DNA of 64,000 bases from Macrophomina tecta (lineage: Eukaryota; Ascomycota; Dothideomycetes; Botryosphaeriales; Botryosphaeriaceae). The notes under the pieces were generated by a model, which saw nothing but the letters and a program-made list of their open reading frames with translations, had not been told where the DNA came from and made no database searches. Every line of letters begins with the position of its first letter. Position 1 is the first letter of the stretch. Of the stretch, positions 37,720 through 63,042 are shown in pieces. The DNA is taken from assembly GCA_024180945.1 (NCBI GenBank), contig JAKSGN010000006.1, positions 186,001 through 250,000 of the forward strand. The letters run 5' to 3'. A program made the position numbers and the translations under genes.

Positions 37720-37747
37720 ATATTAACTCAATCGCTCTTTGATAGAG

Positions 37748-42045: not shown

Positions 42046-42890
42046 AACATAAGAAACATGATTTGAGACAAGACGACCGCCCGCGGTGCCCTAACCCTAC
42101 GAGAGATTGGCTGGCAGTACGAGGAGATTGAAAGCTAAGTTGGCTGCACGATTAGACAAGCGCAAACCGTGTGCGCGCAAAATCATCCAACACCAAAAAA
42201 AAAAAAAAAAAAAAAACGCAAGAGCTGGCCAGACGCGCTTACCGAGAAGTATAAGAATGAGCTAGAGGTATTCATATGCTCGTTAAAAACGAACCGGCTA
42301 CTCTATCCTCTGCACAGATGAGACATGGGTAACTAGTAGGAGGCACAGGAAACAATACGTAACGAGAAAACGAGGCGAGGAGCTGAGTCCAACGTGCGTA
42401 CTTAAGAACATACGTCGTAAACGAGGCTGGATGTTTTAGGGTTCGTTTTTTAGCGAATAAAAAGGGCCAGCTATCCTCTGGGAGAAGGAATGGGGATTAA
42501 TTGACCAGGAGTTATAGACGCAGCGGATTATGCCTATGATTAGTTAATGACTTTCTAAAGAGTTATCTCTGCCTCTCTTATGCAAGATAGCGCTCCTGGC
42601 CACTCAGCAAAAACTACTTAATTAGATCTCCAAAATAACGAAGTATCTCTATGATTTACTGACCAGTTTTCTCGCCAGATCTAAATCCAATTGAGACAGT
42701 TATGGAACTGGATGAAAAACTGGATTAAGCAGAACTATCTAGACAAGAACCTAACATATAAGCAGCTCAGGGAGGCAGCTAAAAGAGCATGGGAGACCGT
42801 AATCGAGGAATAGCTAAGGGAGCTCTTCAACATGCATCAGCGTTGTAAGGACGTAATTGAGGCATACGGCTGGCATACAAAGTAGTAGTA
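42046..42890 (+). mobile_element. RIP-damaged Tc1/mariner transposase relic
   Basis: Translated fragments in the plus orientation include REIGWQYEEIES and VGCTIRQAQTVC (helix-turn-helix part), TDETWVTSRRHRKQYV, MQDSAPGHSAKTT and FSPDLNPIETV, then KQLREAAKRAWETVIEE and IEAYGWHTK. The catalytic residues fit the DD34E arrangement of Tc1-like DDE_3 transposases. Many in-frame TAA/TAG codons sit where CAA (Gln) or TGG (Trp) is expected, for instance in the WMFWGS segment, the mark of repeat-induced point mutation (CpA to TpA). A run of 22 A lies at about 42,196-42,217. I could not define terminal repeats. Confidence 0.88.
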
Positions 42891-43273
42891 TATGCGGAGA
42901 AGTACTGTAATTTACACCGGATTTGGGCTAGATTCTTGAGTGTTCCATGCCCCACTTCACAGCGCGCTAACAATACTTAACCGGCTTTCTTGTGGGGGCC
43001 CCACAATAGCCGAGCCCCTCGCGAGCTCTCACGGGCCGTTCATACTTGTCTGTGCAGACATGTAAGCGCCCGGGTAAATCCCACCCAATCAGAGTGTGTG
43101 CTATGCGGCATGCTTTTCTTGGCGGCCAACATGATGGGATTAAAAGATGGTACGAATTCCACCCCTGGTTATCCTTCCACGCCTTCCCGCATTCCGCTCA
43201 ACTACGGTCCTGTCTGTCTTGCAGGCTACCCAGAGGTACAGCTACCCCAAGCATATTAAATTTCTCCATCACT

Positions 43274-46200
43274 ATGGAATTTTCTTCATCCGAACAGAAT
43301 GAGAGCATCCGGCACAGGCTGTCTGTGCGGTTGAATCGGTTTCGCCGTAAATTCCACCATCGTTCGAATGAGCCAAGTACTCAATCGCCTCAGAAATCCA
43401 GTGCGGATCCAAATATTGTGTACGGATGAGTCTCATATCTTTGTCAACAAATTGCGCTAACCAAGTAAGCGGTGCCGGCGCGCGGCCGTCCCAACTTGAA
43501 CAACACTCCACCAATCGGTCGAGTGTTGATAACGACGTCAGCAATGCGAATGGGTCCTCAGATCTTTGGAGCGCAGCCTATCGTGAAGCAGTTGACAGCT
43601 TTGGTAAAGATATAGACGTTGCTATTCTCATGGGCAGTAATGCTGCACAGTTGTTGAAAGAACTCGAGGAGATCGACGAAGAAGCAACTCAGGAGTCAGT
43701 CTTCCTACGCGGCGTGGCGTATTTGCGCTCCATACAAGTACCACTCGAGAGGTTCAAGCTGGCATTAGACCTGGCTTCTCCCTTAACCAGTCTCGATCCA
43801 ACGGCGACAACTGTTTTTGGTGTGGTCCGAAGCGTGACTGCAGTAAGCTTCTTTCATATAGATTTTTGTGTCTATGCCTATGATTAGTGCACTGAGATTA
43901 TTGACTTATCTGAACAAAGATTGCCATAAGCTTCGCAACCGCCGATTTGGAGTTTGCGAAGCAAATTGGGGATATGTTAGAGCAGATTTCCTACATTGAC
44001 GACTGCGATACACTAGGCCAGAGAGCAAACAAGGCAGACATTCATAAGGTAGTCCACCCAGCTTATTTAAGGGCTTTCTAATTTTTCATAGGCACTCGTG
44101 TCTGTGTATCAGAAAATTTTGGAATTTTACCAAGTCGCACACGAAATTCTCACTAGGAGAGGAAGAAAATTGATTATGAAAATGATTTTGGAGACCGATC
44201 GTCTGCCAAACATTGTCCAAGATTTCTTGAGACATGCTGATACTCTTCGAAAACTTATCGAAAAAGCGACGTTGGAGATCGTTGAGGACATTAAGACTAT
44301 GCTCTATGACCGTGAAAGTAAGCTATTGTCAAACTCATACGGTGAATGCAAACTTACGCACCTCAGTTGCCAGGTGGCTTGATAGTGGCAAGCTGAATCT
44401 GCAGAGCCGATATCATGCACGTTTGCAGGATCTTCGAACGGACGAGGCTTGTGAAATCTTGCTCACACACTCTAACTTTATCGACTGGTACCGCGCCTCC
44501 AATTCCGAGTGGTTGGTGATTCTCGGTCCGATGGGCTGTGGGAAAACAGTTGCAATGGCATTCCTCGTGGACGAGCTGATTCGAAGAAACGAGCACCAAC
44601 TACCTAGGCCCAAGGTGTGCTATTACTATTGCCGAGATGACGAAACGGGCCAGGCTGTCCACATATTCTCTACACTGGTCCTGGCGCTTCTTGAACAACT
44701 TTCCGGTCTGAAAAAAACGTTCTATGAATGGTACAAGGAAAATCAAGCTTCCGGGATCCTTGTACCAGCAACAAGTACAAGGAAACTAGAAGAGTTCCTG
44801 GAAATGGTACTGGAAACACTCGATCGCCCACTTTTTATCGTTATTGATGGTCTAGATGAGTGCGATAGAGGATCACGGAAGAATCTTCTCCAATTATTGG
44901 GAACTTTATCGCAGAAAACTCCGCGGCTCAAAATTGTACTTTCTTCCCGTCCTGAAGAAGAAATTTTGGAGCAGTTGGATGAAGCCATCAAGATCGATAT
45001 GAGCTCTGACGCTCATAGAGATGCCGTTATCGTTCGGCATACGGTTGAGAGGCAACTATCCCATTTACCCGAAGATGTTAGGGCGCTCGTCATAGAGTCA
45101 CTGTCTCGTTTGGCACAAGGAAGTGCCATATGGGTGAAGATGGTAGTTGAACTCATTGAAGTTCGTAAAATCAGAGCGCTGGGGCCGATGCGGACTTTTT
45201 TGGACCACATGCCTTTGCCGGGACAACTCTCAAAACTCTACATCACACTGCTTTCGCGAAGCTCTTCAAACGACCTCGAGAATGAGCAGCTTGCTACTCT
45301 GGCTTTAAAAATTCTCGCTGTTGCATGCAGGCCTCTCAGTATCCAAGAGCTCGCCTGGGCCGTGGCGTTGGCTGCAGTTCAACATGAGGTCACCACTGTT
45401 GCTGCCCTTGCCCAGCTGGTCGATCCTCAAAGGGTGATGAGTTTGATTCACCCGTTCATTACTCGCATCGATTTTACGGATGGCAGAAAGCGTCAAGTCC
45501 AACTCGTACACCAGTCAGTGCGGGAATTCATCATATGGGAATGGCCTCATCTGCAAGGGTCCGCTACATTAGCAGCACATGATCAAGCACTTTCTCGCAA
45601 CCACATCGAGAACTTAGAGGCGTTTATATTGAATATCTGCATCAATTATCTTCTACTAGAAGAGATTGGCAGCTCTGATCTATTTTCCGAAGAGCAAGTT
45701 GCAATTGACGAGCTACCCCAAGAGTTCGACCTATTTGATGAGAGGGAGTCGTTCGAATACGATCCGCATTGTTCGTGGGAGGCCTGGGAAAAACAAATGA
45801 TACGCTACGATCCGACCGAGCGTGGCTTCGGTGAGTTCTTCGTTTACGCATCAAGCCACTGGCTCAAGCATTTTGGCGCCATCGAGACTGGACCTCTTCC
45901 ATGCCTGGCGAAGATAGAGAGTCTCTGCCATGCAGGCTCCACCCGACTTCAAAACTGGACCAGTCAGAATTGTCGCCCAGACTGCACAATCAAGGCCAGG
46001 TTTGAGTTTGACAGTCGTCTGTACGATCCTCTCAGCATCACTTCACTTTACGGCTCAGATCCCTTCCTCCGCCATATCCTGAGGAACTCGAACTTCGAGC
46101 AAGACAAATACCTTCGTTTACCAGCCATATGTGCCGCTGAGCAAATTCTGCAGTGGGGTAATTTGTCAAGGCTTCGGATGCTCTTTTTGGAAGGCAAACT

Positions 46201-46981
46201 CAGTCACCAGCTTCGAAATCTAGATTTTTTTCGTCTCGTCATTAGACGATGGGTCGACTTCGGTGCACGCCACGATAACTGGGAGGTGGTTTTTGACCTT
46301 GTCGATTACATATTGGATACTCTAGTTGAGGAACAATGGGGCAATGAGCTTCTATGCATCGCTGCTCGCGCCGGCTGTATGCCCATGATCCAATGTTTGT
46401 TGAATCGAGCGCGGCATAAGGCAGAGCTTAGGACTGAATTGCTGCGTGGCTTTCCATCGATTGGACAAGCTGTTTTGGGAAACCATACTGGCGTGGTAGA
46501 GTATTTGCTGAGGGAGGAAGGCTTTGAAAAACACCTTCAATACCTAAATTCCCGCGGTGAAAACCTTCTACATATGGCGTCAGGAGCCTGCAATCCAGCG
46601 ATGTTTCGCCTACTGGTTCCCCATTTACAAAAGTCCATGAATCAGACCGATAGCCAGGGTGACACGGCCCTCCTGCGGGTTATCAAAAGCTCCTCAGATT
46701 CATGGCACCGTTACGAGTCCGCAAGAGTACTCCTTTCGTATGTCGATGTCAATGGGAACAGCAATATTGGGAATGGGCAGCAGGATCCCTTGCAGGTGGC
46801 TGTACAGCTTGGGGATGTAGAGATGTGCCGCCTTTTGATTTGTGAGGGCAACATGAATCCACTGTCAGCCTTGACACGTCGTCATGATGGACAATTGGTA
46901 ATCGAAACCGAGCCTTGGACGAACGAGGAGGCCATACTGCAATTGCTACGAAAGCATGCCACCATTGCATCGACGTCGTAG
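43274..46981 (+). CDS. NOD-like receptor: N-terminal helical domain, NACHT, ankyrin-like C-terminus (Starship NLR)
   Basis: Five exons (43274-43419, 43470-43842, 43920-44048, 44092-44317, 44367-46981), introns of 43-77 bp, total divisible by three, 1,162 aa. Residues about 70-285 are helical and resemble the fungal STAND N-terminal (Goodbye-type) domain. The NACHT ATPase follows: P-loop GPMGCGKT at 345-352, Walker B LFIVIDGLDECD and the sensor-like IVLSSRPEEE. The C-terminal 350 residues contain degenerate ankyrin-like repeats (ENLLHMASGACNPAMFRLLV, GDTALLRVI, DPLQVAVQLGDVEMCRLLI). All ATPase motifs are intact. Expected to sense a ligand through the repeats and trigger incompatibility or cell death. 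The first intron has a non-obvious acceptor chosen to keep the frame. Confidence 0.9.
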
Positions 46982-49024
46982 AAGAGCTCACCGAAACTCG
47001 GGACAATGGCGGGGCTTCCAGTCCTTTTGGGGGCCTTCCTTCATCCGCACTGTAGCTTGTTGATTTTCTACAAGAAGCAAACCTTTTATACAATATCTTT
47101 TGCCCTGAAGTCTCACGAACTGGCAGATTACCTGGGCAACTTTTGGTCATATCGAAGTGATCACTGCTTCACCATTTGCAGAATTTGATACTGTTACATT
47201 ACACCCTTCTCCACATAGTGCTATGGCGTGAGATTTGAACAATTACCTTGGTAGCTGGCTCAAGGCTGTGCTGTGTGCTCTGCCTTGCTAATGCAAATGG
47301 ATGTGCCTCACAGAGCTGTTTAATTTCGCTAGGCAACAACAGGCAGCCAGTCATTCCGTCAACTCATTCTTCAGCATCGAAGTCCCCGAGTTAATTCACC
47401 AGTCGGCGTCGAGTTCGAAGACCTTCAAACCCCGCACAAGAAATACAGGCAAAATTGCTCCCTCCAATCAAATTCTCCGTTTCCCAGGTCGACCCATTTC
47501 CAACCCCGCCTGTTTACCGTCAATAACTCAGAAAATCTCCACCTGGATTATTCCAGCACATTTCTTTCCCATGTCAATCTGCATGAGTTTGCAGAAGGAT
47601 ACATTATCGAACAGCTGAGAGAATTATAGCGCGCAATATATACATGGCTCTCGAAAGCTTTACCCCCAATGCACAGCGCATCAACGATATAGTGGCGCTG
47701 ATAAAGCGTATATACGACTGCACACCTTAGCTACGAAAGTCTCGAACGGGCTCCCCTTCGTTGCCCGAGATTGTCGCACATTATGCTGCAAAAAACTTTC
47801 ACATTCTGGTCAACTTCGAAAAGTCCCAGAAGCTCCTGGTTAATAGGCGATTTCTCTCACTTGATCCGACATCCACATTGGCTGAAAGGCAGTAATCTCA
47901 TGTAAAATGAGCTTGATGGAAAATGAGCTCAATCACCTCCGTTATCTGTTATTGGATAGCATATTAGCTTAGTCATTCATTCTGAGACGTCTTGGGGATC
48001 AATACCACGAGCGCCTCAACAACGAAGCAATCAAGTCATTCATTCATCGATTCTGACCGATCAAGCGCGAATTCTATCAGAGCTCAATCACCCCGTTATG
48101 GTATTGGATAACCTGTTAGCTTAGCCATTCATTATTAAATGTTTTGGGACTCAACACCATCAGCGCTAGGAGTATCACGCATTCAAGTCACTCATTCATC
48201 AATTCAGACAGACCAAGCGCATATTCCATCATGGTCGAATCTGGTGATACGCATCAGTACTTATTAAGGTTGTAGCATCTGCAAAGTAGATCCAAAAGAA
48301 AAACTGGGGACCGCCAAAGTGGTCAGAAAATATGAGCGTACTCGATTCTTGGAGCAAGGAGAGGTAACGTCCCTCCCTATGTGGCGAGAAACCCACCGTG
48401 CCGAGACGAATTCATCATTCAGGCATCTCAAGTCTCTCCCTCACGAGTCTATGAACTTATGGCGAATATCCCACTGTAGTTCAGGCACTTCTCCACCAGA
48501 CCTCAGGCTGCAGCGAGAAAAATACGGCGGTCTGGTCATGCTGTCGATCGTTCCGTTTACGCCATCGAAAATCGCCTCAGCTTTGCCCCCTTGCTCAACC
48601 GCGACTGTTGGAGTCTCTTCGAAGTTCGGAGCGCTGGTGTGAAAGCTCCATGAAGGAAAAATATGGCTTCAAGTTTTGACAACCCTAAGAACAAGCATTG
48701 GTGGAGTCCGGCCGTGCGAAAGGGTTCCACGGACGCCAACGCGTCTGTGCGTGTAGGATTTAGCACGCTTACATGACCGTATATTGAAAGTTTTAGTGGC
48801 TGTATTATATTATACGCTATTCCTGATCGGTAGAAGAGTCATGGGCAGCCACGTGCCCGGTTTTATTGTTGCCGCGCAGCCTCTCGCTCGTTCATTGTTG
48901 CCTAGAGCTGCCTCTCACTCGTTCCCTTCCCATCACCAGCTTCATCCGCTCGCTATTAGGCCCATCACTGCCTGCTAAGAAACTCCGATACCGTGAAGCT
49001 CTGCCATAAACGCTTCAGCCCACC
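46982..49024. other. Repeat-containing intergenic region
   Basis: Between the NLR and HET genes. It holds the 24-mer and 155-bp tandem duplication (47,911-48,231) and a weak match to the dispersed repeat near 48,364-48,412. An ATG frame at 47,301-47,618 (105 aa) has no recognisable product and I do not call it a gene. No RNA gene seen. Confidence 0.5.
47912..48231 (+). repeat. Diverged tandem duplication of about 155 bp
   Basis: Unit 1 is 47,925-48,079 and unit 2 is 48,080-48,231. Both start GAGCTCAATCAC, contain GTTA..TATTGGATA, TTAGCTTAG..CATTCATT and CAAGTCA.TCATTCATC, and end with TCAAGCGC/CCAAGCGC followed by ATTC.ATCA. Differences include several transitions. The block is preceded by the 24-mer shared with 38,609. 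No coding potential. Confidence 0.85.
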
Positions 49025-51137
49025 ATGGATGACATATTTGCACCACATAAATTCTGTTCAGTATGCCAAAGAATAATTTCCAATTCAAAGATCCTGTTGG
49101 GCGGCAAAGGGATTGAAACATTGGATCACCATCAAAGCTTTGCTGCTCTTACCGACTCAGCAGGTAACGGATGTCACCTCTGCGCCCTTCTACTGTCCAC
49201 TCTTCCGACCAAGATACCTCCAGGCAGTGTAATCCCAGATACTTCGGTATCCTCAGTAAATAGCGAGGACCTAAGATACAGGATCATAGGACCAGATTCA
49301 TGTCTCCGGATAAGAATTTTAGACCGCTTGGATGCAAAGCTCAGGCGAATCAGTCTCGATAAAATACAGTTCCCCGGCCTACGTATTATTCCTTCATCGC
49401 TCCATCTTGATGATATTGAGGATGCGCTTGCTATTGAGAACGATGTGCAACAACTTTTGAGAACATCAGAGAATAAGGCTAAGTTAAGCCTTTTCACCGG
49501 ATCTGATGCCACTTTCGAGCTAGCTGAAACATGGATTCGATACTGTATATCAAATCATCATGCTTGCAAAGAGGCCGGGATATCAGTTTCAGCTTTGCCA
49601 ACTCGACTTTTTGGATCTACAAACTACTAGCAAAGAAGACGACATACGGCTATGTCTCACTACAGACCTTCTGAGTCATACAAATGCAAAGAGGATTGAA
49701 TATGTGGCATTGAGCCATCGCTGGGGGACATCAACGACACTTCGCCTACTTCAGGGGCCAAAGGGTACCATGGAAAGGTTCACGACCTCAATTCCGCTAA
49801 ACGCCCTACCTCTGACATTTCGACATGCTGTGGTGATTACCCGGCGTCTGGGATATCGATATCTCTGGATTGACTCACTATGCATTATTCAAAACTCTGA
49901 ATCGGATTGGACAGCGGAGTCGACTATTATGGGGGAGATTTATCGCGGCAGTGTGTGCACTATCGCGGCGCTTGGGGCGAAGGATAGCCACGGAGGATGT
50001 TTTACAACCCGCAATCCGTTAAAGTTCATACCATGTCACGTGAACTCTACAACAAAAGTGAGGGTGCGAGCCGTCCGGGATCCGATAAGGCTTTCTGGAG
50101 AGTTGCTTACAAGAGGATGGGTGATCCAGGAACGTGTATTATCTCCACGCACGCTGTTTTATGGGTCTTCTGGAATATACTGGGAATGTATCCAAACTCA
50201 GAGGACAGAGGAGGGCCTGGATCGATTTAACGAAATGCCTAAAACGGCCTTCAACAGACTGGTTAGCTCATTCGAAAGCAACCCAGACAATGACGACGTC
50301 AGAAATCCAACCGAACAGCTAGCTGCTTTTCACAGATCATGGACCGAACTGTTGCAGTCTTACACCTCAACGCAGCTTACAAACCAAACAGATAAGCTGG
50401 TGGCTTTCCAGGGCATAATTCTGCACATTGCGAAGAATCGTCGCTATAACTCAGCGGCTGGGTTGTGGAAGGAACTTCTTCCGGCGGAGCTTTTATGGCG
50501 TACAGAAAGACCGGTTCCAAAGAGGACCAATATCTATACCGCGCCATCCTGGTCGTGGGCGTCTATAGATTCTCCAGTAAATAATTGTTGGACGGAACTG
50601 GTGACTTCGAAAGAGACAAGAGACCGGGAATATCCGTGCAAGGTAGACTGGAAAGTAAAGATTCAAGATGTTCAGGTGATAAACCAGCCGAATGGGCGAG
50701 TCATAAGCGCCTCACTTCAAATCAAAGGTCCACTGCGGAGACTTCCTGTTGGTGAGGAACAAAGCAAAGGTGGTCTCCTTCATCAGACGAGAGAATGGGC
50801 TTCAATTCAAGGAAAAAATCAAATACTTGAAGGAGGATACGGAATTCACGACGGGACTATTACGAGAAGCAAGGTTTTCCCGGATTATTGGAGCTCGTCT
50901 TTAACACCACAATTATTTGTTCTGTGGGTTGGCCGTAGCACTGGCACCGAGACTCGAATTCGTGATGGTCTCATTGAGCCACGCTTCGTAGACGTCGGGC
51001 TTGTGTTAGAGCGTGAGGGTCACGAGAATGATTTTCAGCGGAGAGGATATTTTGAGCAACGGTTCTATGGGAACGCAACGTCGTACCTATTCGCTGATGA
51101 CCAGGAGTTTAAGACAATGTCTATCTGCATACGCTAG
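49025..51137 (+). pseudogene. HET-domain (heterokaryon incompatibility) gene with a one-base frameshift
   Basis: The N-terminal 195 residues contain a CSVCQ..C..CALL Cys-rich start typical of long HET proteins. A five-T run at 49,608-49,612 shifts the frame and gives a stop at 49,630; with one T fewer the frame would continue without break to 51,137. The second part has the HET motifs YVALSHRWG, AVVITRRLGYRYLWIDSLCIIQ and RGWVIQERVLSPRTLFYG, then the usual C-terminal half ending in SICIR. HET proteins cause cell death upon recognition of non-self. Either this copy is inactivated or the T-run is a sequencing error; apart from it no damage is seen. It follows the NLR gene by 2 kb in the same orientation. 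Confidence 0.88.
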
Positions 51138-52266
51138 ACGGAAACTCTGTGTCACGAGACTGACAGCTTCCATGACTACCAGGTTATGGTACTCATTATA
51201 ACAGTAGAGACTTCGCTTTCTTATTAAGTGTTCAACATACTGACCTTAAACTCGCTTCTACTATATATTCGTCTTTTTTCTTTATTGTAATGTCTATGAG
51301 GTTCAGCCAGCGCCTCGCCTCTACACGCAGGGACAACTGCATCCGCAGGAGAGGGGCGCAGCCACAGGTCTAACAGCCACAAGCTGGGCAAGGAGAGATG
51401 ACATAACGTTAAGTTAAATTACACCGTAATTGTCATTTGGAACGTTGCGGGATCGTCGATCGTTCCGATTGGAGGTACCGGCCTTCATTGCCAAACTTTA
51501 TGCCACGCGTGAGAGATTGCTGGTCACGGCTTCCAAGCATAGCGGTGAGACTGTGAGGCCCGTACCTAACCCCTCTATTGGCTTAAAAGGTGAAAAGAAC
51601 TCGATGGTAACGTTATTTTAATAAACACCGGCTCTCTTCTTGAATTTGCATATAAATGTAGAGTAATTATTATGGCCACACAGGAAGGCATCAATTAAAA
51701 CAACACCAATGCTTAGAGTACTTATAGAAATATTGACCCCGTGTAGGTGCGCCTTTCTGTCACAGGGGTCTCAAAGTCACTAGTAGCTCAGAGTGGTGTT
51801 ATACCTCGAAAACCTCAGAGGGAGAAGTTAGTGAAAACTGACCTGTGCAAGCTCTTGGTGCAAGAAAAACTCTTCCGCTACGGCAACTTTGCTTTGAAGC
51901 TGGACCCCTTATGTCCCAGCACGTCGGAAGAGCAATTCGAACGTACCTCTCTGCCCCACTGAGCACGTATGACTTCACTGAAGAAGGGCTCCTTTCCTCT
52001 ATACTTTTAACTAAAACGCTCTCCTTCAGTGCAGAGCCCCCCCCAATAACACCACTTTCCTACAAGCATAGGTCTCGCTCTCGTCTCATGGGTGGTAGAT
52101 AAACTCTCTGATGCCTCATTGTGGTCTCTAAAACTGCGTAGACTACTACCATGCACATCCACGATATAATCAAGCCTTAGTACATTTCTATTCTTTCGTA
52201 TTCTATGTAATCTCTACGTATTAGTTGAGGAATCCTCACAGCTCAGGATGGTAGGTAGAGAGCTAC
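51138..52266. other. Gene-free interval with repeat copy B
   Basis: Between the HET gene and the 692-aa gene, which converge here. The only recognisable content is the dispersed repeat (51,614-51,955). A pyrimidine/GC-rich patch lies near 51,300-51,370. No supported coding frame. Confidence 0.5.
51614..51955 (+). repeat. Dispersed repeat, copy B
   Basis: Same orientation as copy A at 37,748-38,085, about 13.9 kb away. Compared with A it is richer in T and A at transition sites (for example GCGCCTTTCTG for GCGCCTCCCTT), as if more strongly affected by C-to-T mutation. Boundaries are where alignment by eye stops. Confidence 0.85.
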
Positions 52267-54345
52267 TTATTTCAGACGCCTGAGCGCTTGAAGAAGTTCC
52301 TTCTCCGAAATATTCGCCGCATCTACAATTTGCTTTACGGCGTTAGTTGCGGCTATCTTTCTACGTGCCGGGCGTTCTACATAGTCATCCTCTTCCTCTG
52401 TCTCCTGATCCTCTTCTTTATTCACCAGAAGTTCCGGATGCCGCCTGCGGAGGGTTGGTGGGCTCCAAACCACATGCTGTTGATTTTTTGCCCATGGATC
52501 AGGAGCATCTAAGAACAGCCATGGCACCTCGGATCTGTCCGACTCCGAAAGTGTCTGCTCCGTTTCGGGGTGCAGGTTCTCTCGTTTATAATACGCCAGC
52601 GTCTCCTTAATCTCTTCCATATAACGAAGAGCTCCATCTCTTAACTTCCTAGCTTGAGACTGGCCTCTAATTGAACCAAGGCCAGACATTGTTGTTATAT
52701 AATCCACGTCCGGTTCCTGTAACGTTCGGACTGTCAACCACTGAGGAGCGGCGCGTTTCCCACTTGCAGGAGCTTCTCCAGTCATAACGCAGGTAGCGTA
52801 CATGATATCCCACGAAGTTGTCTCCGCTGGAAGCTCGTTTAAGTACCCAAATTTCGGATAAAGCTTCTCCAAGACACCCTTTGGAAAGTCCGAGCTAGGC
52901 CTCATAAAATAATAAGGTAGTTCGTTAGTTCCAGCGTTGACGCAGGCTCTATATAAACCCCGGCCGGCCTTTCGGATATGGACAATCTTTCCGTAGGGGG
53001 TAATACCAGCTTCCATGAGCTCGGGGCCAAAGAAGGCGGAGAACTTCGGCTTCGGTGTTACTGTGTCCGACCATTTGCCCCTGGACCTGAGGCTCGTATT
53101 GTTCTCTTTAACCCTTCTTGGTGCACTGATATCGGAATTATAGCCTGTTATAGATCCGTAGTCACCACGACTGTTCTTATCGTCTGGGTAATACCGAAGC
53201 AGCTGACTGGTATATGCCTGCTGTCCCCTCTCAGCCATCTTTGACTGAGTACCGGCCATCCACTGCACAGGAAGGCCGCCAATCAACAACTTGGCACTTA
53301 TTTTCCCTAGAAGCTTGATAATCGCCGCTGATTTATCATCTTCGTCATCTTCCTCTGAGATTACTACTTTATGAATTGATCGGAAATCCTCAAGTGGAAG
53401 TAAGTGGTCATCCTGTCTTAAACCACTCCCGCTATTCGTCTTTGAGAGGGCTTTATTGAGGGATTCGATCTCGAGTATATCTTTTTCCAACTTTTTGGCA
53501 TCTCCGGACTTTGCATGGGCGATGAGCTTTGGTATGATTTCCTCGGCGGGTCGAAGTACAGCCAACTGGTTAGGAGTGGCTTTTGTAAAGGCCTTCCGTG
53601 ACTTCTCACCCTTTCCAGTCCCGTAGTTCTTTGCCAATGCTTCAACAACTTCTTTTGTTACAATCATTTTGTAAGGAATCCCTCTTTTTTCCATCTTAAG
53701 TGCATAAAGGCCGCAGTTCTGGTCTATTTCATCGAACAGCCTTTCCTTCTCGGACTCGTCTTTTTCATCAAGAAACTGCTGCCAAAGCTTCTTGAATGCA
53801 TGTATATGTCCTTGTAGCTCCCTCCATGGATACTCATACGTCGTTTCCGGAACTTCGGGGTACTTCTTTGCAGTAATCCTTCTGATCTGGCTGTTGAGGT
53901 TCTCCATGCCCTTTTTGTGCCCCTCAGTCAGGTTTTGCTCCCACCAGCTTCGGGTTACCCGATAACATTGTTCGTAGATGGTGAGAATCTCGGGGGGAGC
54001 TAGTGTAACCTCATCGAGGTTTTCCAGCGCTGCCTTGCTGCCTTGTGCGAGAAGTTCCTTTCGGCTCCGTTCGTCTTCTTCGAGGTCATCGTCTTCAGAC
54101 TCTCTACCACTACCATCATCGTCTCCTTCAGAAGCATTTGACGCGAACCCATTTTCAAACATATCGGTGTCCTCATTATCATTGGCGTGAGTGTAGGGGC
54201 TTGCTTTTCTGAGCTTATCTTGCCGCTCTTTCTGATGCCTACGCGCCCTATGTTTCCCTTTAGAGTTTTGCGGGGCTGTATCATTGCCGCTAAACATCTC
54301 CTGATGTTCGCTCGATGAGCTGGGTTGCTGTCCTTGAACTGACAT
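52267..54345 (-). CDS. Large protein of unknown family (692 aa)
   Basis: A single uninterrupted frame from ATG 54345. Residues 1-110 are polar with a basic patch (KGKHRARRHQKERQDK) and a long acidic stretch (EDTDMFENGFASNASEGDDD), consistent with a nuclear or chromatin protein. A second acidic patch (SEEDDEDDKS) lies mid-protein, and another (EEDQETEEEDD) precedes a basic C-terminal segment ending KELLQALRRLK. Between these are helical and mixed parts with many Trp and Tyr (RSWWEQNL, TTYEYPWRELQGHIHAF, LPVQWMAGTQ, LPYYFMRPSSDFPKG). I recognise no named domain. A TATATAAA box on the minus strand lies about 140 bp upstream of the ATG. Confidence 0.8.
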   Translation of the reverse strand: MSVQGQQPSSSSEHQEMFSGNDTAPQNSKGKHRARRHQKERQDKLRKASPYTHANDNEDTDMFENGFASNASEGDDDGSGRESEDDDLEEDERSRKELLAQGSKAALENLDEVTLAPPEILTIYEQCYRVTRSWWEQNLTEGHKKGMENLNSQIRRITAKKYPEVPETTYEYPWRELQGHIHAFKKLWQQFLDEKDESEKERLFDEIDQNCGLYALKMEKRGIPYKMIVTKEVVEALAKNYGTGKGEKSRKAFTKATPNQLAVLRPAEEIIPKLIAHAKSGDAKKLEKDILEIESLNKALSKTNSGSGLRQDDHLLPLEDFRSIHKVVISEEDDEDDKSAAIIKLLGKISAKLLIGGLPVQWMAGTQSKMAERGQQAYTSQLLRYYPDDKNSRGDYGSITGYNSDISAPRRVKENNTSLRSRGKWSDTVTPKPKFSAFFGPELMEAGITPYGKIVHIRKAGRGLYRACVNAGTNELPYYFMRPSSDFPKGVLEKLYPKFGYLNELPAETTSWDIMYATCVMTGEAPASGKRAAPQWLTVRTLQEPDVDYITTMSGLGSIRGQSQARKLRDGALRYMEEIKETLAYYKRENLHPETEQTLSESDRSEVPWLFLDAPDPWAKNQQHVVWSPPTLRRRHPELLVNKEEDQETEEEDDYVERPARRKIAATNAVKQIVDAANISEKELLQALRRLK

Positions 54346-54651
54346 TGCGGTGAAGATAGTATAGGCTTTTCGGTCGTGTGGTTCTCTGATTGATAGATAT
54401 ATTGTGTCGTTGAGATCCTGCTCAACTAAGTACTGGAATGCTGATGGGTTTCTGAGTTTTACTGGGCGATTTGAAGCCTCTTTATATACCTAGGCTCATT
54501 TATCGCGGAAAGGATTCTCCCTTTATCGGAATAACCGAACAGTTTTCACGGATCTGGTATTCATGAAACGCTGCGGGTTTTCCTCGGCGGCGCCTCGCTC
54601 AGTTTATATATACCTATCACCGGCAATTCAACTGATACCTGCAGAACCGCA
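54346..54651. promoter_or_regulatory. Divergent promoter with TATA boxes on both strands
   Basis: Leftward: TATATAAA (minus strand) at about 54,481-54,488, serving the 692-aa gene. Rightward: TTTATATATACC at about 54,603-54,614, some 40 bp upstream of the GPI-protein ATG. Two clear TATA boxes in a 306-bp gap support separate core promoters for two real genes. Confidence 0.6.
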
Positions 54652-55107
54652 ATGTTGCTCTCTAGCCTCTTGACCCTCTTTTTATCCGTCCCAGTCTACT
54701 CATTGGGAAAAGTTGTTCCAGTGAGCGGGTGGATCGGCCAGCGCAACTGGAACGCTTCTATAGCCACCTCACCACCCTCACCGTTGTCGAGTATGCCGGC
54801 TAGTATCTGTCATGCGCCAACGCCATTGAATACCACCAGACACACCATTACCAGCCCCTCTTCCGGCCACTTCAAGACTCCGAGCTTGTCTATCTCTTCT
54901 GCAAAACTTCCGTCCATCGTCACTCCGGTTCCATCAGCCTCTACACAAAAAATCATTGGGATCTCAACTCCTTCAGGTTTAGCCACTCCTGGGACTCCAA
55001 CACCAACCCCAATATTTCCCACGCCAATGTTTTCGAACATAGCAGCACAGGCTGCACCGCAATCTCTTTTGCTAAGCGCGCTCCTCATTATCACCATCTT
55101 AGTATAG
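54652..55107 (+). CDS. Small Ser/Thr/Pro-rich GPI-anchored-type surface protein
   Basis: A 151-aa single-exon protein. It begins with a signal peptide (LLSSLLTLFLSVPVYSLG), continues with a Ser/Thr/Pro-rich middle suited to O-glycosylation, contains few Cys and ends in a hydrophobic tail (LLLSALLIITILV) preceded by small residues (AAQAAP), the pattern of a GPI-anchor signal. Likely on the cell surface or wall. It neighbours an Och1-like glycosyltransferase. Family not recognised. Confidence 0.7.
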   Translation: MLLSSLLTLFLSVPVYSLGKVVPVSGWIGQRNWNASIATSPPSPLSSMPASICHAPTPLNTTRHTITSPSSGHFKTPSLSISSAKLPSIVTPVPSASTQKIIGISTPSGLATPGTPTPTPIFPTPMFSNIAAQAAPQSLLLSALLIITILV

Positions 55108-55202
55108 CTCAATATCATGCAGTAGATAGCTTAAAGCTTAGGTAGTCAATCTAGAATACACATTTCTTTCTAAATGCTCAGTACGACTACAAGAGCGCCT
55201 CC

Positions 55203-56218
55203 TCAACTAATATAAGAGTCCGCGGAATGGTGATGGGGGTGCGTCGGAACCCAACTCGACATCCAGGCGTGCGAAACCAACGCTGTCTCATCATCAGCCG
55301 TTCCCGAATGTGAATGTTGCTGCCCACTGGCAAATCCGTTCACAGGGACGATGAGTGCGTCGGCAAGGAGTATTGGCTGTCTCAGTCCTGATATCTCGTC
55401 GCCAGTTATCCTCAACCCGATGCATTCAGAAAGATACTCAAAAACAGCCGTGGTGAAAACTCGCGGGCCCGTGAGACCAATGACATCGTCGAAAAAGAGC
55501 TGAGGTAGCGTGTCTCTATCCTGTTGCCTCAGGAATGTCTCCACTCCATTTTGAACATCATGCACCACCCGGCGGATGAGAGGGTGATTCCGTTTCGCCA
55601 TAATCGTAAACTGGGAGATTTGTATGCTCCAGGGCATTCCGCTCCACAAAGGTCCTTGGCCCTTGTCGATCTCAATGCCAAGAACTATGTTTGTTCGATT
55701 GCGATATTGGGAAGGTATCCAGTCATCTACGGGGCGAATTGGCCGTGTGTCAACATCAGTATAAACGCCCCCCTCTGCAAGGAGGATGAGATATCTAAGG
55801 AAATCCGCTCGGAGAATTGGATCGGATTTGATTAGGTCGTAGGTCTGACGTATCCCGCTATCATAGCGGAATTTGTCCCTGACAAAGGAGTCTTCGGTCC
55901 CTTCTGTCAAGCACTCATGTTCATATCGCGGATTAACACTCTTCCATTGGGCCTGATAATCATCGACAAACCCAGGCTTCTCGTCAGGAGAATAGTGTAA
56001 GATCTGCCAGATCTTCTTTGGGACTGATTAAGGTCAGCACTGTGCCGGTCGAACATGCTTTTCTACTTACAGCTCTTGTCATAATGCGTGAAATAGTACA
56101 CATCCCGGCAGGACCAAGAGAACCAGGTAAGTAAAATAGCAGTGCATGCTAGAAGGCTAAGTTTGTAGACTCGTAGAAGGTTGGAGCTTCGAGACTGGAA
56201 GAAACGAGGCCGCGCCAT
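55203..56218 (-). CDS. Och1-like glycosyltransferase (DXD sugar-binding family)
   Basis: Two exons (56218-56071, 56023-55203) around a 47-bp intron with GTAAGT donor, GCTGAC branch and AATCAG acceptor; 322 aa. A short basic tail and a membrane anchor at about residues 20-37 (KLSLLACTAILLTWFSW) make it a type II Golgi protein. FPKKIWQILHYS, then QAQWKSVNPRYEHE, and the catalytic ILLAEGGVYTDVDTRPI with the DXD motif are those of the GT32/Och1 family (alpha-1,6-mannosyltransferase type). HAWMSSWV near the end fits the family. Acceptor specificity is not determinable. Intact. Confidence 0.9.
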
Positions 56219-56312
56219 TTCTGGGACTTAAAAACAACATAAAGCGTGGAGGTGACATCGTCAATGCAGTAGCAACGGAAATCAAGGGATTTATAACTAT
56301 TTCCGCGCATTA

Positions 56313-56700
56313 ACGATACGCAGGGGATTCAGTTCCGCGCGGCACTATATCCCGCAAGGGCTTCAGATTGCACGTGAAACTCCATGAATAATCCCGTACG
56401 GGACTAATTCCCCTCCACTTTTCGGGCGCGTAGGGCTCTGTGGGTTGTGTGGGACCATCAATTCGGGCATTTTGTGAGCGTTCGCGGGACTCAGTCCCGC
56501 GCGGGACATTGGCGTGTATGGACAATTGGTCCATATGGGCCTGCAGCCAGTGCGGGACTGAGGGATGTACGGACAATTGGTCCATGCGGGATAGCCGCCC
56601 ATACGGCACATTATCGAACAGGGAATTTCAATCCGTGCGGTAAGGCAAAATCGGTGCAATTGACGTAATGCAGGGGATTTTCTCCCGTGCGGGAGAGGTG
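56313..56700. repeat. Cluster of degenerate ~25-bp palindromic motifs
   Basis: Three direct units CAGGG(G/A)ATT-N5-CCGYGCGG start at 56,321, 56,619 and 56,671, each with exactly 14 bp from the start of CAGGG to the start of CCG. An inverted relative lies at about 56,392-56,414 (TCCCGTACGGGA then CTAATTCCCCT). Perfect or near-perfect palindromes GTCCCGCGCGGGAC (56,494-56,507) and CTCCCGTGCGGGAG (56,682-56,695) occur. A second motif, GGACAATTGGTCCAT, appears twice 51 bp apart (56,520 and 56,571). No gene overlaps. Looks like an array of protein-binding sites or a minisatellite. Confidence 0.8.
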
Positions 56701-56980
56701 AACTAAGCGCCCGGACTAACATTTCTTCTAACATTCCTTCCAACATTTCTTCCAACATTATTAACAAATGCCAGCGCTTACACTACATCGCTTCCCATGG
56801 GCCAATACATGAGGAAGCAAAGATGCACGATCATTTAGCGAAATAATTGCCAGGTAACGTGCAAGGCGCGCGACTAGAGGAATACGTCACGAACCGGACG
56901 AACGAAAATAGAATTTAAAAATCTTGGGGCTTATTTACAGTCCCGAGCCTCCTTGCTCCCTCGAGCTATTCAAGGCTAAA

Positions 56981-57467
56981 ATGTCGAGAAAACGATCACG
57001 ATCTTGCGACTTTCACGATATACTATCCTCAGGTATGTTCACAGGTCGATTCGATGATTGAAGCTCATTGGCCAGAAACTTTAAAACTCCGTCTGGATGA
57101 CATACTCCTCTTGGAAGAGAAAAGGCACAGAGAGGTCATCGATCAGATCGAGAGCCTAAAGGAAGATCTCTCAGGCAGTCGTTCCATCGAACGAAAGCAG
57201 CGCAAGGGGAATGGTCAACCGCCATATAACCAGTTGGAACTCGCCATTAATCATGATGAGGGCTGTGTGCGCTCTCCGATTGATGAATTCGAGAGACTTG
57301 AACGATCGGAGTTGCTCTTGCAACTCGGTAAAGGCTACATGAAAGGTATAGCCTCACAGCTCACGCGACGCATCATGGAGGATTTACATGGACGCATCAG
57401 AGGTGAATTCCCCGTCCGATTTATTATCTCAACACTGACTTCGCAGCGTACGGGTGGAGGAGAATAG
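56981..57467 (+). CDS. Small protein, function unknown
   Basis: Two exons (56981-57032, 57076-57467) around a 43-bp intron (GTATGT donor, GATTGA branch, GGCCAG acceptor); 147 aa. The spliced form starts with a basic, nuclear-signal-like MSRKRSRS. A charged helix follows (LLLEEKRHREVIDQIESLKEDL), then a folded-looking segment (IDEFERLERSELLLQLGKGYMKGIASQLTRRI). No family recognised. It is one of three small or medium genes close to the captain. Confidence 0.55.
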
Positions 57468-57556
57468 CTACAAGAGGACTACACCACCTTCTTAAGGAAA
57501 AGTGATTCGTGCTCCACCTAGGGGTTTTCATCTATAAACATGGTGGTATGTATGGC

Positions 57557-57967
57557 TTAGTAGCCAGATAAACCAATAAATCTCCCCAACTCTCTTCGCT
57601 TAGCTGAAACCCTTTCTTCGCATCTCATTGTGGCAAAGGTAGCCTGATCCCAATTCATTGTGGTTGGATACATCTTGGTGAAGTCGTCCGGGATGGATTG
57701 GGAGTAGTAGGCTGCAAGCTCATCTATCTGCTCTTCGTTTAACAAGAAGAAATGGAGGACAGTTTTCGGAAAATAAGGATGAGGCTCTCCAACCGGAATT
57801 CGGTAGAAAGGTGTCAATTTGATAACGAGATTGCGTAGTTTGTATCTAAAAAGAGCTTTGTTCATTGAAGAATGCATGGTAGGAATGTGCAGTAGGAGAA
57901 CAGGCGGGAAATGGCGACCCTTAAATACCCAGACAAGTCGAGAGCTTGTTATAGAAATAGAATTCAT
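57557..57967 (-). CDS. Small conserved-looking protein ending GRFIGLSGY
   Basis: ATG at 57967 gives 136 aa; a later ATG at 57877 would give 106 aa starting just before NKALFRYKLRNLVIKLTPFY, and an upstream exon is also possible. The body has motifs that look conserved: KLTPFYRIPVGEPHPYFPKT, LLNEEQIDELAAYYSQ, and KRRELGRFIGL at the end. I believe similar small proteins occur in many ascomycetes but cannot name the family. Function unknown. Confidence 0.55.
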   Translation of the reverse strand: MNSISITSSRLVWVFKGRHFPPVLLLHIPTMHSSMNKALFRYKLRNLVIKLTPFYRIPVGEPHPYFPKTVLHFFLLNEEQIDELAAYYSQSIPDDFTKMYPTTMNWDQATFATMRCEERVSAKRRELGRFIGLSGY

Positions 57968-58053
57968 ATTTCGTATTTTCCAAAATTTTCCTGAACCCCC
58001 ACCCCCCAATGAACTCTACACGCTACTTTTCGGTGCTCTTTCCTTTCCTGGGC

Positions 58054-59042
58054 CTATGATTGATGCAGGTCGAACATCCGCACAAGTTCAGTATCAATGT
58101 TCCTCTTTAGCACCCAGCTATTGTGCTCAGGGCCGTATCCTTTCCACTTTACAAGATAGCTGATTACCTTCCTCTTCCCTCCTTGATGCCTTCGGGCCCG
58201 CCGTTGCAGCAAACAGTCGACATAGTACTCGTTTTTCTCTGGAACAGCCGGCGGCGATAAATCTTGAGTAATGAGGTCTGCGGCTAGCCTTGTCCCATTG
58301 CCTTTATCTTCCCTACCGTGACAGGGAGAAGTATAAGGCTCGCTGCGGCGAAACTGGCGGGCCCGCCTCCGAGGACTGAATGGCTGACGTAGGTACGGCT
58401 CATGGGTTCCAGTAGCCGGTGTCGAAGTATCGGCTTCCACATGAGCTGATGCTTGAGGCGTGCCCTGATGTTCCGGCGAGCAGGGTCTGACCCAAGCGAC
58501 GGGAGTCTCTCGGGAGGTTTCGCTGTCGGTAGAGGTGGTCCCTTCTAGACCACTGCCTACAATGCTGGACATGGGTGTGATACCCTCTTCGGGTTCGTAT
58601 TTCTGGTAGCAAAGAGCCGAGCCATTTTGAATAATTGGGGGGAGCATAAATTCCGGGGCGGAGTACAAATTAGCGGTAAGTCCTTCCTCCTCTAGTTTGA
58701 TGTTCAAAGAACGTTCTTGAGGCTCATTTGAGACAGCCGGTGTATTAAAATCCTCGTTCATATCTCGGCCAGGGGATTCTGCTCATTTCCCACTTTAGGA
58801 TAAGATGTTTATGATGAGAAGATTAAGGACTTACCAGTCGCTTCAACATAAGAATTTTCGAGAGCCTCTAATTTAATAGCAGGCTGGAAATGCTCCTTGT
58901 GCGCGCGGTTGATTGCCCCAAGAGAAGAATACGTGGTATTGTCATCTTCGAGGACTTCCCTACCAACAAACTCCTGGGAGGTTCTGTAGGGTCCGGTCGT
59001 TGGAGCCAAAGAACTCATTGCTGAAGTGAGTTGCGTAGACAT
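58054..59042 (-). CDS. Chromodomain protein
   Basis: Two exons (59042-58835, 58778-58054) around a 56-bp intron (GTAAGT donor, GAGCAG acceptor); 310 aa. The first 240 residues are polar and disordered. The C-terminal 60 are a chromodomain: EYYVDCLLQRRARR, VISYLVKWKGYGPEHNSWVLKRNI, with the aromatic-cage Tyr and Trp residues in place. Single C-terminal chromodomains usually bind methylated histone tails, or occur at the end of retrotransposon integrases; no integrase is seen here. It is the second recognisable gene after the captain, in the same orientation. Confidence 0.82.
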
Positions 59043-59880
59043 GGTATCGGAAGAAAAGACTATCTCGGTGAATGCGGGTGAAGAGGTTGGAAGGCAAGAG
59101 CAGGGCAACTCAAGCCTTATGTATTCCCCTCTCCTGGCTCGTGCACCAATTGCACGTGCTGCCACCTCGAAACATGGTACAAAGCCCCGGTTGACTTGGC
59201 CGTGCCACATCCATTAGCGAATGGTGGCCTCCGACTTCATGAATAGGAAGTTCTGGCCTTGTCAACCTCACCCCAACCACCGACGCCGAATATCTCGGGC
59301 CAGTCATAGACCAACAACTACCCTGTTTTCCCCAAATGCACGGCGTGCTAAAAGATCATTCTGAGCTATCTCGTAGCGCTGACGAAGGGTGCAAGCTTGT
59401 AGCGAGTTGATACGTGTTCCAGTGGAACCTCCCCACTCCAGCGGCCCCTACTGATTGCATATGACTGTGTGCAGCAGGCGGTTGATACCGTATTTTTGCG
59501 AAAATCTTATTATTAGTGCAAAGTTCTGTTTCCACTGCAGACATATGTCTTGCTTGAGTAAGAGATTTCCGCTCTGATATCACAAGGGGCACGAGTAAAG
59601 TTACTGCCGGAGCAGTCATGCATGGACAACACTGGTACACATGAGTTTTAATTATTGCTTTCATTGGATCTACGTTTGTATCGGCTGCCAGCTTTGCCGA
59701 TCACGCCCGCAGAAGGCGCCATATCAAGCCAGTCAACTCGGCTTGGCGGCCGGCTAGGTGTACCGGGACTGAAGCTTCTGTTCACTTGCATCTGGCGGAC
59801 CCCGTGATAGTTTTTAAGATGTATGGTCAAAATGGAAATTAAATCAATATGTATGTAATGCGTTGCTCCTGGCCATTAAA
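59043..59880. other. Interval between chromodomain gene and captain
   Basis: No supported gene. It holds the chromodomain promoter on the left and the captain 3' flank on the right. Short minus-strand frames near 59,356-59,664 and 59,648-59,830 have no recognisable product. Confidence 0.45.
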
Positions 59881-62546
59881 TTACAGCTGAGGGTCCTCCT
59901 GCTGAACTCCGAACAAGATACCGTGCGACTCCGTGAAATGCTGGAATACCCCATTAACACCCTTGATCTCTTCTTGGCATAGCGGATGTGGGCAAGGGAA
60001 TGATTCGCAGATATATCGTAGGTGGTGATTATGAATATGATCTTTGAGGCTCATACCTGCCTCCGGAAACTGCCTATACCGATGAGAGGGTGATCCGCGA
60101 GTTCCGAGACAGAAAGGACACAGGGCTGCAGTACTTGTAATTCCGTGCCGCTTGACAGCCCCGCAAAACATGTCCTTAATGTCCTGCACGTGCTTTTCGC
60201 AGTGAGTATCCCATTCGAAATCTGACTCAAACCATTCTGCACATTCGTAGCAGTAGTACGCTTTTGAGTCCAGCGTATACTCTGAGAACATGCCGTGAAC
60301 CCGTAATAAGTGAACACTAAGATCGAAGTGGCTTGCAGTGGTGGTCCAGCAGCCTGACCACAGACAGCGATAGCTACGCGAACGGTGAGCGTGGTGCGAA
60401 ATGTGGGACGCCACCACAGCAATGGACTTATAGATGAATGACTCGGTACATCCTTGCCACTGGCAGAGGTGCGCTCCACCGTGCTGGTGTTTGTTCTCTT
60501 TTGCTTCCATCTGCATTCTGGAAAAGGTCTTCTCAGAGACCTCAATCGGTCGAAGGTAAGGCTGCGCGTTCAGCCGCTCCATCTTTTTCTTTTCTTGGCT
60601 TCGCTTGCAGCACTTTATAAGATGGTCATTGAAGTCCCACCTTCCTTGCCTTCATAATGGTCAATAACTGATTGTCGCAGCCGCTTGGAGAACTTACTTG
60701 GGCCTGAATTGCGTAGTACACACCGGGCACTCATCATCTTCAGCAGCTGCAAGTGGATAGCAGGCAAACCAAGCGCCAGGCTTGGCTATATTGACCAAGG
60801 GCTCTAGCGCTTCGCCGAGGGGAAGTGGCTCTTTCGTTTTTCTCTGATAGAAATTTTGTACAATGGCGCGTCTGGGATGGTCGTACCTCAGCAGTGCCGT
60901 AAGGCACCTGGACGGCTCTGGGCCCTTCTGGGGCTTGTCTTCGTCCGTGTCCATAATATCCCACGACTCTGACGGTGCCTTAGGGACGGGATTCTTGAAG
61001 AACTGCTGCCGAATATATGACAGTTGCTTTTTTCTCTGAGCACGTTGTGCCTCGTAGTCGTGGGCAGAGGTAGTTTTGCCGCGCACCCGCACCCCGGACT
61101 TAGTAAGCTCCGAATTCGGTACCTTAGGCGCTCGTCGATCCCTGGTGAGTTCCATCGAGCGTAGCAGGTTCATGGTGTCCTTGTGCTGCTCTCGTCCTAG
61201 GATAATCGATTGAAGGTCACCACCAAAGGTCCGCGAGATGTAATGTTGGAACATAGCTTCGTTATGATGGCCCATAAGCTGTTGACGCTGCGCAACCGTC
61301 ACATTTTCTATTTTGGCAAGTTAGAGATAGGTAAACGTTTGCTCTCAGGATTGCTCACCGTCGAACACATTGCCAGCACCCCTCCGAAAGCAGTAAGAGG
61401 TCAGGTTATCCTCATATCCGGCTCTCTTACCAAGTTGGCTGAGAAAATGGTTCAACGAGCTGTATTTGAGTATCCGGTCCTGCGAGATACGGCTCTGATT
61501 CTCGATCGCCCGTAGTATCGGGACGTCTGCAACGCTGTCTTTGATGTGAATCGGGTCCGACTTTTTTCCTGCCGTGATCTTTTCCTTACTGAGCACATCA
61601 GACATCTGAATTGCACCATCTGCAACGGCCAGAGCAATGAAGTAAGTTACAGGGCATACATCCCGTTGCGACGGCTCCTCATAGAAAGAGAGCGTTATAC
61701 TAGGAATATTAGCAAGGTCTCTTAATACGTATGGGTCTGTCTAAACGTACTATTTCGATTCATCACGTCTCTGATTTTTCCGGAGTTGAAAAGTCACCTT
61801 GAGGTGGATTATCGGGACACCATCCCTTTCGATCCAGAAAATCTCCACGTCTCCATACTTGAGGCCTTGATTTGTCCCGCGGTACCGGCTAGATTCGATG
61901 AATTCGCCGGGCCGCAGCCCTGCGTATGCCGAAAGTATAATAGACCAAGCTAGTTGCAGACGCATCCGGGGATGCTTGAACACATGCTCATCACAGGCCC
62001 ATAGATAGTAAAGTAGATCTTCCACGACCGCCCAGGTAGCCATTGGCTTTGGCGCACCTTTAGTTGTTGCCCCCTCCGTGACATCAAGGTTGTCGATAAA
62101 CTATGAAATTATTAGCGCCAGCCTAGATTAGATGATTTTAGGATCGTTACAGTCTTCATACACCGATCTTCACTTTTCTTATACGCATAGTTCGCGCGGA
62201 CACCGATCAGGCGCTTTAGATCGCACCACCACCGCTGAAGTGTTCGGATGCATAGTTTTCCCCGGAGGCCCTTCTTTTCTCGCACAAGCCATTTGAAGAA
62301 GATCTGTAGTTGGTTAAGGGTTGGTGCAGTGTAGAAAGGCTCGCACGACGGTGATTTTTCTAAGAGAATTTCTTTTGCAAACCTTCTATCTATTAGCTTA
62401 CTACTATGCGAGAGCGAGGATACATACTCTTTCCACCGCTTGACATGGACATCAACTCTGTAAGACTCCAGGAAGTTTTGCTCCCGCAGGTCGATAGGCT
62501 GCGATTGGTTGGCAAGCGCGATGAGGTCACTATATTTTGCACTCAT
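59881..62546 (-). CDS. Starship captain: DUF3435 tyrosine recombinase
   Basis: Five exons on the minus strand (62546-62151, 62100-61751, 61699-61359, 61307-60698, 60640-59881) with introns of 50, 51, 51 and 57 bp; the sum is divisible by three and gives 818 aa. The start is ATG 62546 before SAKYSDL. Recombinase boxes: Arg195 in LSAYAGLRPGEF; Arg354/355 in SYCFRRGAGN; QRQQLMGHH with His376/377; and Tyr385 in FQHYISR as likely nucleophile. After the catalytic domain comes CPVC..H..C (Cys556, Cys559, His572, Cys576) and C2H2-type fingers (CLWSGCW..H..H) as in long captains. No stop or frameshift is seen, so it may be active. It should excise and integrate the whole element. Confidence 0.93.
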
Positions 62547-62940
62547 GATGAGTTGTGGAGGGAAGAGAAGCAATGGACAGTCGAAGAAACGTCGCAGGTG
62601 ATGCCCACCCTATATATACGTGGCTGGCGCGAGCGTAGAGCGGACGACACGCCGTTTGCCGGCGCACGACCGCCCCTGGAGCACAGATGGACATAGGAGT
62701 CATGGAAAGATGGAGCTGGTTTCAGTACAATCGTGAAGCCTGATATCTTTTCCATACTTCCAAAATCCCAGAAAAGGGAACTAGTAAGCAATATTAGCGT
62801 CTACGGTATAGAAAACACATTTGATAGGTCGCTAATATTGGTCACTAATTAACGGATTCCAATTTCTGAATCGGTGTTTGGTGGGCGCTTAATTGTTCCC
62901 GAAAAGTAATACGAAAAAAAATCGGGGTGAGCGGACACGA
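62547..62940. promoter_or_regulatory. Element 5' terminal region upstream of the captain
   Basis: About 395 bp between the captain start and the 5S junction. It contains the captain promoter and presumably the recombinase-binding ends. Visible structure: GCAATATTAGCG at 62,788-62,799 and its inverted partner CGCTAATATTG at 62,830-62,840, and TGAGCGGAC at 62,928-62,936 next to the junction. The exact element end is not certain. Confidence 0.6.
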
Positions 62941-62965
62941 GAATACAGGGCTTCCCGTCCGCTCA
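62928..62965. repeat. Inverted 9-mer spanning the element/5S junction
   Basis: TGAGCGGAC (62,928-62,936) and GTCCGCTCA (62,957-62,965) form a perfect inverted repeat with a 20-bp spacer. The right arm belongs to the conserved 5S sequence; the left arm is on the presumed element side. Confidence 0.7.
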
Positions 62966-63042
62966 GCCGTACTTAAGCTGCGAACCGGCTGATTAGTACT
63001 CAAGTGGGTGACCATTGGGGAATCCCGGCTGTTGTACGTTTT
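62941..63042 (+). rRNA. 5S rRNA, 5'-truncated
   Basis: From about 62,943 the sequence matches ascomycete 5S rRNA: ACAGGGCTTCCCGTCCGCTC, then GCCGTACTTAAGC, GATTAGTACT, GTGGGTGACC (internal promoter box) and GTTGTACGTTTT with a T-run terminator. The first 20 or so bases expected (ACATACGACC and the start of helix II) are absent and replaced by unrelated sequence, so helix I cannot form. Non-functional as it stands. Either the insertion of the neighbouring element split it or it is one of the truncated 5S pseudogenes common in these fungi. Confidence 0.88.

Follow-up and report, generated by a model that had tools for sequence, protein, structure and literature searches.

An intact Starship captain, very probably of Voyager, at the 5' end of a giant element that splits a 5S rRNA gene

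Voyager, a Starship, was reportedly described in a 2022 study of Macrophomina phaseolina (M. phaseolina), where it inserts into 5S ribosomal DNA (5S rDNA). In the excerpts of PMC10128009 consulted, its target site is reported as AGAATACAGGGC and its size as about 100 kb; PMC11623301, likewise consulted in part, ties the name to the same fungus. Osiris, a Starship of the Enterprise family in Aspergillus fumigatus (A. fumigatus), belongs to a different captain family, and the portion of PMC12153272 at hand links its direct repeats of more than 6 bp to 5S targeting. Here we analyzed a stretch of 64,000 nucleotides (the window, C6:186001-250000) against the one genome that contains it, 54.1 Mb in 37 contigs. 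The window carries a DUF3435 gene that is a Starship captain and the first gene at the 5' end of its element. Judged from target site, 5S insertion and a closely matching M. phaseolina captain fragment, this is very probably the intact captain of Voyager, in a well-preserved copy of an already published element and not a new kind.

The captain gene lies on the minus strand (window 59881..62546) and is modelled as five exons encoding 821 aa plus stop. Exon 1 (62151..62546) is placed by the splice model; for exon 2 (61751..62100, with the R195 box), exon 3 (61359..61699, with the R354/R355 box) and exon 4 (60698..61307, with H376/H377 and Y385) a residue check was added, and for exon 5 (59881..60649, a Cys/His-rich tail) Pfam profiles and an alignment. 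The introns measure 50, 51, 51 and 48 bp, all are GT...AG, and the frame has no internal stop or frameshift. Enumeration of 7200 splice combinations left 24 with an open frame of 800-822 aa, which differ only in exact splice sites; the model with the best donor sites was kept, and a second copy of the element, on contig C27, has GT...AG ends at the positions matching all four introns. An earlier note on this stretch had described just such an intact DUF3435 gene with its tyrosine-recombinase residues at these numbers, and the description holds. The DUF3435 profile (PF11917) matches residues 161-429 with E = 1.8e-45, and the phage integrase profile (PF00589) matches residues 323-388 weakly, below its cut-off (E = 1.6e-4). 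R195, R354, R355, H376 and Y385 are invariant across an alignment of eight sequences; H377 is variable. The C-terminal zinc-finger tail of the earlier note stands in part: the Cys/His pattern is also present in two relatives, P0001 and P0002, whose sequences span the tail, but a zinc-finger nature is weakly suggested by the profiles (PF12171, E = 0.0086, below cut-off; GLI fingers, E = 0.0014).

In a single-sequence search with 7991 candidates scored, relatives of the captain are few and distant: nine proteins at 29-46% identity. A profile search added, among others, an M. phaseolina fragment (P0011), 98% identical over 48% of the captain, and a Lasiodiplodia theobromae protein (P0012), 75% identical over 48%. 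None of P0011, P0001 and P0002 has an NCBIfam match above cut-off. In a folded model, the catalytic core of P0011 resembles Cre, XerH and XerA; when the structures are aligned, sequence identity is about 6-16%. By its R...R-H...Y residues and by a Cre-like catalytic fold, as predicted for P0011, the captain is a tyrosine recombinase. A genome-wide DUF3435 search gave 43 exon-level matches, the one in the window being C6:247108-248016 on the minus strand. Two captain matches with identical scores, at C10:24625-26064 and C37:482450-483889, may come from a segment that was duplicated or from another pair of Starships.

Both ends of the element were located. It occupies C6:169,923-248,939 (79,017 bp), with 16,078 bp beyond the left edge of the window; its 5' end is window position 62,939 and its 3' end C6:169,923. 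The captain sits at the right end, and the element reads leftward. The captain ATG (62,546) is 393 bp inside the 5' end, which agrees with the claim that the captain is the first gene and reads inward. The rest of the window had been taken for one element. This is right for positions 1..62939 (minus strand), with the other end 16 kb past the left edge and a C27 copy that has the same ends and much of the content in the same order, but not for the remaining 1,061 bp, which consist of the direct repeat, the 5S remnant and flanking host sequence. The right copy of a 10-bp direct repeat, AGAATACAGG, stands at 62940..62949 (plus strand), its sole occurrence in the window on either strand; followed by GC, it makes up AGAATACAGGGC. 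Each of the two complete copies, on C6 and on C27, is flanked on either side by this direct repeat. A candidate 5' terminal inverted repeat (62907..62939, minus strand), reading inward CGTGTCCGCTCACCCCGATTTTTTTTCGTATTA, resembles the element 3' end, reading inward ACATCTTCACCGCTCCCTCGAAAAATTTTCGTTATC. Over a 60-nt alignment, the score of this pair was matched or exceeded in 3 of 500 shuffles, and the same pair occurs in the C27 copy; terminal inverted repeats at the element ends are thus moderately supported.

Directly beyond the captain end, the window holds the 3' part of a 5S ribosomal RNA (rRNA) gene, nt 20-120, cut by the element (62940..63040, plus strand). At the gathering threshold Rfam gives no match in the window; the truncated gene scores 36.6 bits with RF00001 (E 8.4e-6), under the gathering score of 38. 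Across the genome there are at least 33 Rfam 5S matches (a lower bound, with 47 of 2579 candidates scored), namely 30 strong full-length genes, one weak match (38.5 bits) and the two truncated genes on C6 and C27. A 19-nt pattern of the 5S 5' end occurs at 43 genomic places with up to three mismatches, against 33 for a reversed control; with up to two mismatches there are 35 places, 30 of them in the 30 strong genes and five orphans (C6:169894, C27:1379996, C10:520064, C13:396926 and C29:531673). By eye, the orphans on C6, C27 and C10 run into the same element 3' end and those on C13 and C29 into a decayed version of that end; C36:124791, the one inspected among eight places with three mismatches, shows no element end. 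The orphan on C6 completes the 5S gene that is split at the captain end. When the flanks are joined, a 120-nt 5S sequence results on both C6 and C27; compared with two intact host genes, these sequences show 1 and 0 differences from whichever gene is nearer.

The 5S piece at the element 5' end belongs to the host's own second 5S type. We had considered its capture from another fungus; this was rejected, as 13 full-length 5S genes of the host are 100% identical to window 62,940-62,980. The host 5S genes (loci L009-L020, L035 and L041) fall into two types that differ within nt 20-60, and AGAATACAGG was found in none of 12 examined genes of one type and in both examined genes of the other. The right piece retains nt 20-120, within which we take the internal RNA polymerase III promoter to lie, and thus probably keeps that promoter, so that transcription of a chimeric 5S that begins within the end of the element is conceivable.

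Is this Voyager or another Starship that targets 5S genes? Osiris ships, according to the part of PMC12153272 consulted, likewise enter 5S rDNA and break it up, and the element here might carry a captain of the Enterprise or some other family. We consider this highly improbable: the repeat and its adjoining GC match exactly the Voyager target site quoted in PMC10128009 (as far as excerpted), the host is Neofusicoccum/Diplodia-like by its RPC2, and the M. phaseolina captain fragment P0011 is 98% identical. Several points weigh against assigning the element to Voyager. The name rests on the target site, on insertion into a 5S gene and on the fragment from M. phaseolina, and this fragment, from which the host is taken as probably M. 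phaseolina, could itself be mobile; its folded model has a mean predicted local distance difference test score (pLDDT) of 60.6. The host RPC2 is 97-98% identical to those of Neofusicoccum and Diplodia, and no Macrophomina-named match is among the 120 listed of 3979, in a listing where names are truncated and the top match, P0015, carries none. In addition, the terminal inverted repeats are imperfect. Voyager remains the assignment that we very much prefer.

The genome contains further copies at the same 5S site. The C27 copy is complete (101,521 bp), with the same two ends as C6 and an intact captain. C10 has the 3' end and a gapped match over about 27 kb (520,093-547,448), reaching about window 12.0 kb; no match was found to window 16-32 kb, 54-62 kb or the element 5' end, and C10 is thus a partial copy. 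The remains elsewhere are decayed: on C13, element ends and 5S halves separated by about 5.5 kb; on C29, an element 3' end; and on C31, a 5S or right-end piece. The whole-genome DNA comparison used queries of 6-8 kb, with window 32-54 kb and C6:176,001-186,000 outside them.

We propose the following mechanism. The captain, as a recombinase of the Cre/Xer type, would recognize the terminal inverted repeats of the element together with the 5S sequence AGAATACAGG(GC), and strand exchange through Tyr385 would take place within that sequence. The 79-kb element would be inserted with its captain side towards the 3' portion of the gene; the 5S gene is split after nt 29, and 10 bp are duplicated. If the two repeat copies recombined, the element would be excised, presumably as a circle, and a complete 5S gene would remain.

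Present-day mobility of the C6 copy is plausible. There is a second complete insertion, on C27, at the same 5S position, and both captains are open, with 761 of 822 positions identical (stop included). Between them we count 88.5 synonymous and 67.5 nonsynonymous changes, giving a synonymous divergence (dS) of 0.185 and a nonsynonymous divergence (dN) of 0.036; the dN/dS of 0.194 indicates purifying selection, that is, selection for function since the two captains separated. It is possible that the captain only looks intact and that the element no longer moves, for example through silencing or defective ends. With only about 91% identity between their captain ends, C6 and C27 did not arise recently one from the other, and two decayed relatives (C13 and C29) occupy the same 5S site. 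We nevertheless find immobility doubtful, considering that the captain frame is open in both copies with the low dN/dS, that both ends and both repeats are present, and that the captain end has no excess of transitions (280 transitions to 113 transversions, compared with 116 to 43 in the neighbouring cargo); thus there is no sign of repeat-induced point mutation.

The identity between C6 and C27 is a mosaic. It stands at 93.1% at the 3' end, rises to 94% over window 1-5811 and to 97% over 6041-7867, and falls to 85-88% over 8.0-10.6 and 11.0-12.0 kb, a region matched about equally by several contigs and thus multi-copy. No match was found over 12.0-14.3 kb; identity is then 97-98% over 14.3-32.0 kb and 97.5-99.3% over most of 32.2-48.1 kb, and there is no alignment over 48.4-51.8 kb. 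At window 58380 it changes sharply, from 97.46% (52,100-58,380) to 91.37% (58,380-62,939), with a maximum chi-square of 201.4; none of 1000 permutations exceeded 19.7. In three of four aligned pieces of the 3' end, C27 is nearer to C10 (98.4, 95.8 and 95.6%) than to C6, and C6 with C10 gives 92.6, 91.8 and 90.4%; in the last piece, C10 has 93.0% identity with C6 and 90.5% with C27. We think it rather likely that the Voyager copies are recombinants, in which a captain module of about 4.6 kb (58.4-62.9 kb, captain and 5' end) has been joined to recently shared cargo, while the 3' end has a separate history. If true, captain, cargo and 3' end would be separable in history even among ships using the same 5S site.

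Alternatively, the captain end may simply have mutated faster than its surroundings, with no recombination between elements. Regional differences in rate are compatible with data from one genome, and the picture at the 3' end is not simple, both in its last piece and in a repeat insertion (window 5812-6040) across which the C10 match to C6 runs unbroken and which C27 lacks. However, a local mutation rate is an unlikely explanation, given the sharpness of the change point under the permutation control, the similar ratio of transitions to transversions on its two sides, the purifying selection on the captain, and the divergence at the 3' end as well, where C27 is mostly nearer C10 than C6. Recombination therefore remains our preferred reading of the mosaic. 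A simpler version, a two-parent origin of C27 from a C10-like 3' end and C6-like cargo, was dropped because C10 and C6 share the insertion that C27 lacks.

Other differences between the copies were noted. The insertion at window 5812-6040 is a repeat of about 229 bp; of the 44 matches listed for this part of the window, 36 are further copies of the repeat at about 94-95% identity, which makes it a dispersed repeat. On C27, about 5.2 kb of other sequence (1465233-1470411) takes the place of the HET stretch at window 48.4-51.8 kb, and about 20.5 kb (1429447-1450011) stand where C6 has about 1.1 kb.

Starships typically carry auxiliary genes for DUF3723 proteins, ferric reductases (FRE), patatin-like phospholipases (PLP) and NLR proteins. 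All four are in the window, the PLP as a partial domain, which agrees with the earlier claim that the captain reads into Starship cargo; FRE, PLP, NLR and DUF3723 are also named in the excerpts of PMC10128009. A Pfam scan covered 30 of the 74 stop-to-stop frames of at least 130 aa besides the captain; together with a HET protein, these four are customary companions of captains. Next to the captain lies a chromo-domain gene (58054..59213, minus strand), putatively one gene made of the open frames 58054-58782 and 58809-59213, with PF00385 in the former (E 5.5e-9). Moving inward, there follow a glycosyltransferase with a DXD sugar-binding region (55203..56027, minus; PF04488, E 2.4e-14), a HET-domain protein in the stretch unaligned to C27 (49524..51137, plus; PF06985, E 7.1e-30), an NLR-like protein with NPHP3/NACHT and ankyrin repeats (44231..46981, plus; PF24883, E 1.3e-30, and others), a JmjC-domain protein (28198..30711, minus; PF02373, E 3.9e-23) and the ferric reductase (24294..25841, plus; PF01794, E 3.5e-15, PF08030 and PF08022). 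Beyond these are the DUF3723 protein (18495..19544, plus; PF12520, E 1.4e-81), the start of the patatin-like phospholipase domain (15679..16410, minus; PF01734, E 1e-6, 29.5 bits against a cut-off of 27.7), a protein kinase (12493..13317, minus; PF07714, E 6.5e-23), a DUF7924 protein in the region with related copies on several contigs (9862..11265, minus; PF25545, E 1.1e-105) and a DUF7492 protein (1532..2176, plus; PF24320, E 1.9e-71). Window 14.3-17.35 kb is 98% identical to C20:278767-281832 and C16:6535-9599, on contigs where no Voyager end was found; this cargo thus also exists apart from complete copies of Voyager. Inside the element, two stretches of about 340 bp (37748-38090 and 51614-51955) are copies of one sequence, at 87% identity.

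That the finding is correct and of a known kind is well supported; its value is that of a clean example. It gives exact ends for an element previously only inferred, shows that a single genome holds two full-length copies whose captains are under purifying selection, and contributes a probable instance of discordance between captain and cargo in ships of one type. Cargo exchange between Starships and discordance between captain and element have already been described, in the parts consulted of PMC11623301 and PMC12134995, respectively. In the Starship literature searched, partly in excerpt and with the original Voyager paper outside the search, no published account of the C6/C27 mosaic was found.

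Compared with known systems, the element is closest to Voyager, with which it has in common the insertion into a 5S rRNA gene, the target site AGAATACAGGGC, and DUF3435 and DUF3723 genes. The sizes, 79.0 kb on C6 and 101.5 kb on C27, stand beside the published figure of about 100 kb (from the excerpts of PMC10128009), and no contradicting difference was found in a comparison made by target site, 5S insertion and gene content. The host of Osiris, A. fumigatus, belongs to a different host class. Osiris and the element here have in common the targeting and fragmenting of 5S rDNA, as far as the consulted part of PMC12153272 goes. Cre, XerH and XerA share with the captain the catalytic residues and, as modelled on P0011, the fold of the catalytic domain; unlike them, the captain is part of a giant transposon of eukaryotes and ends in a long tail rich in Cys and His.
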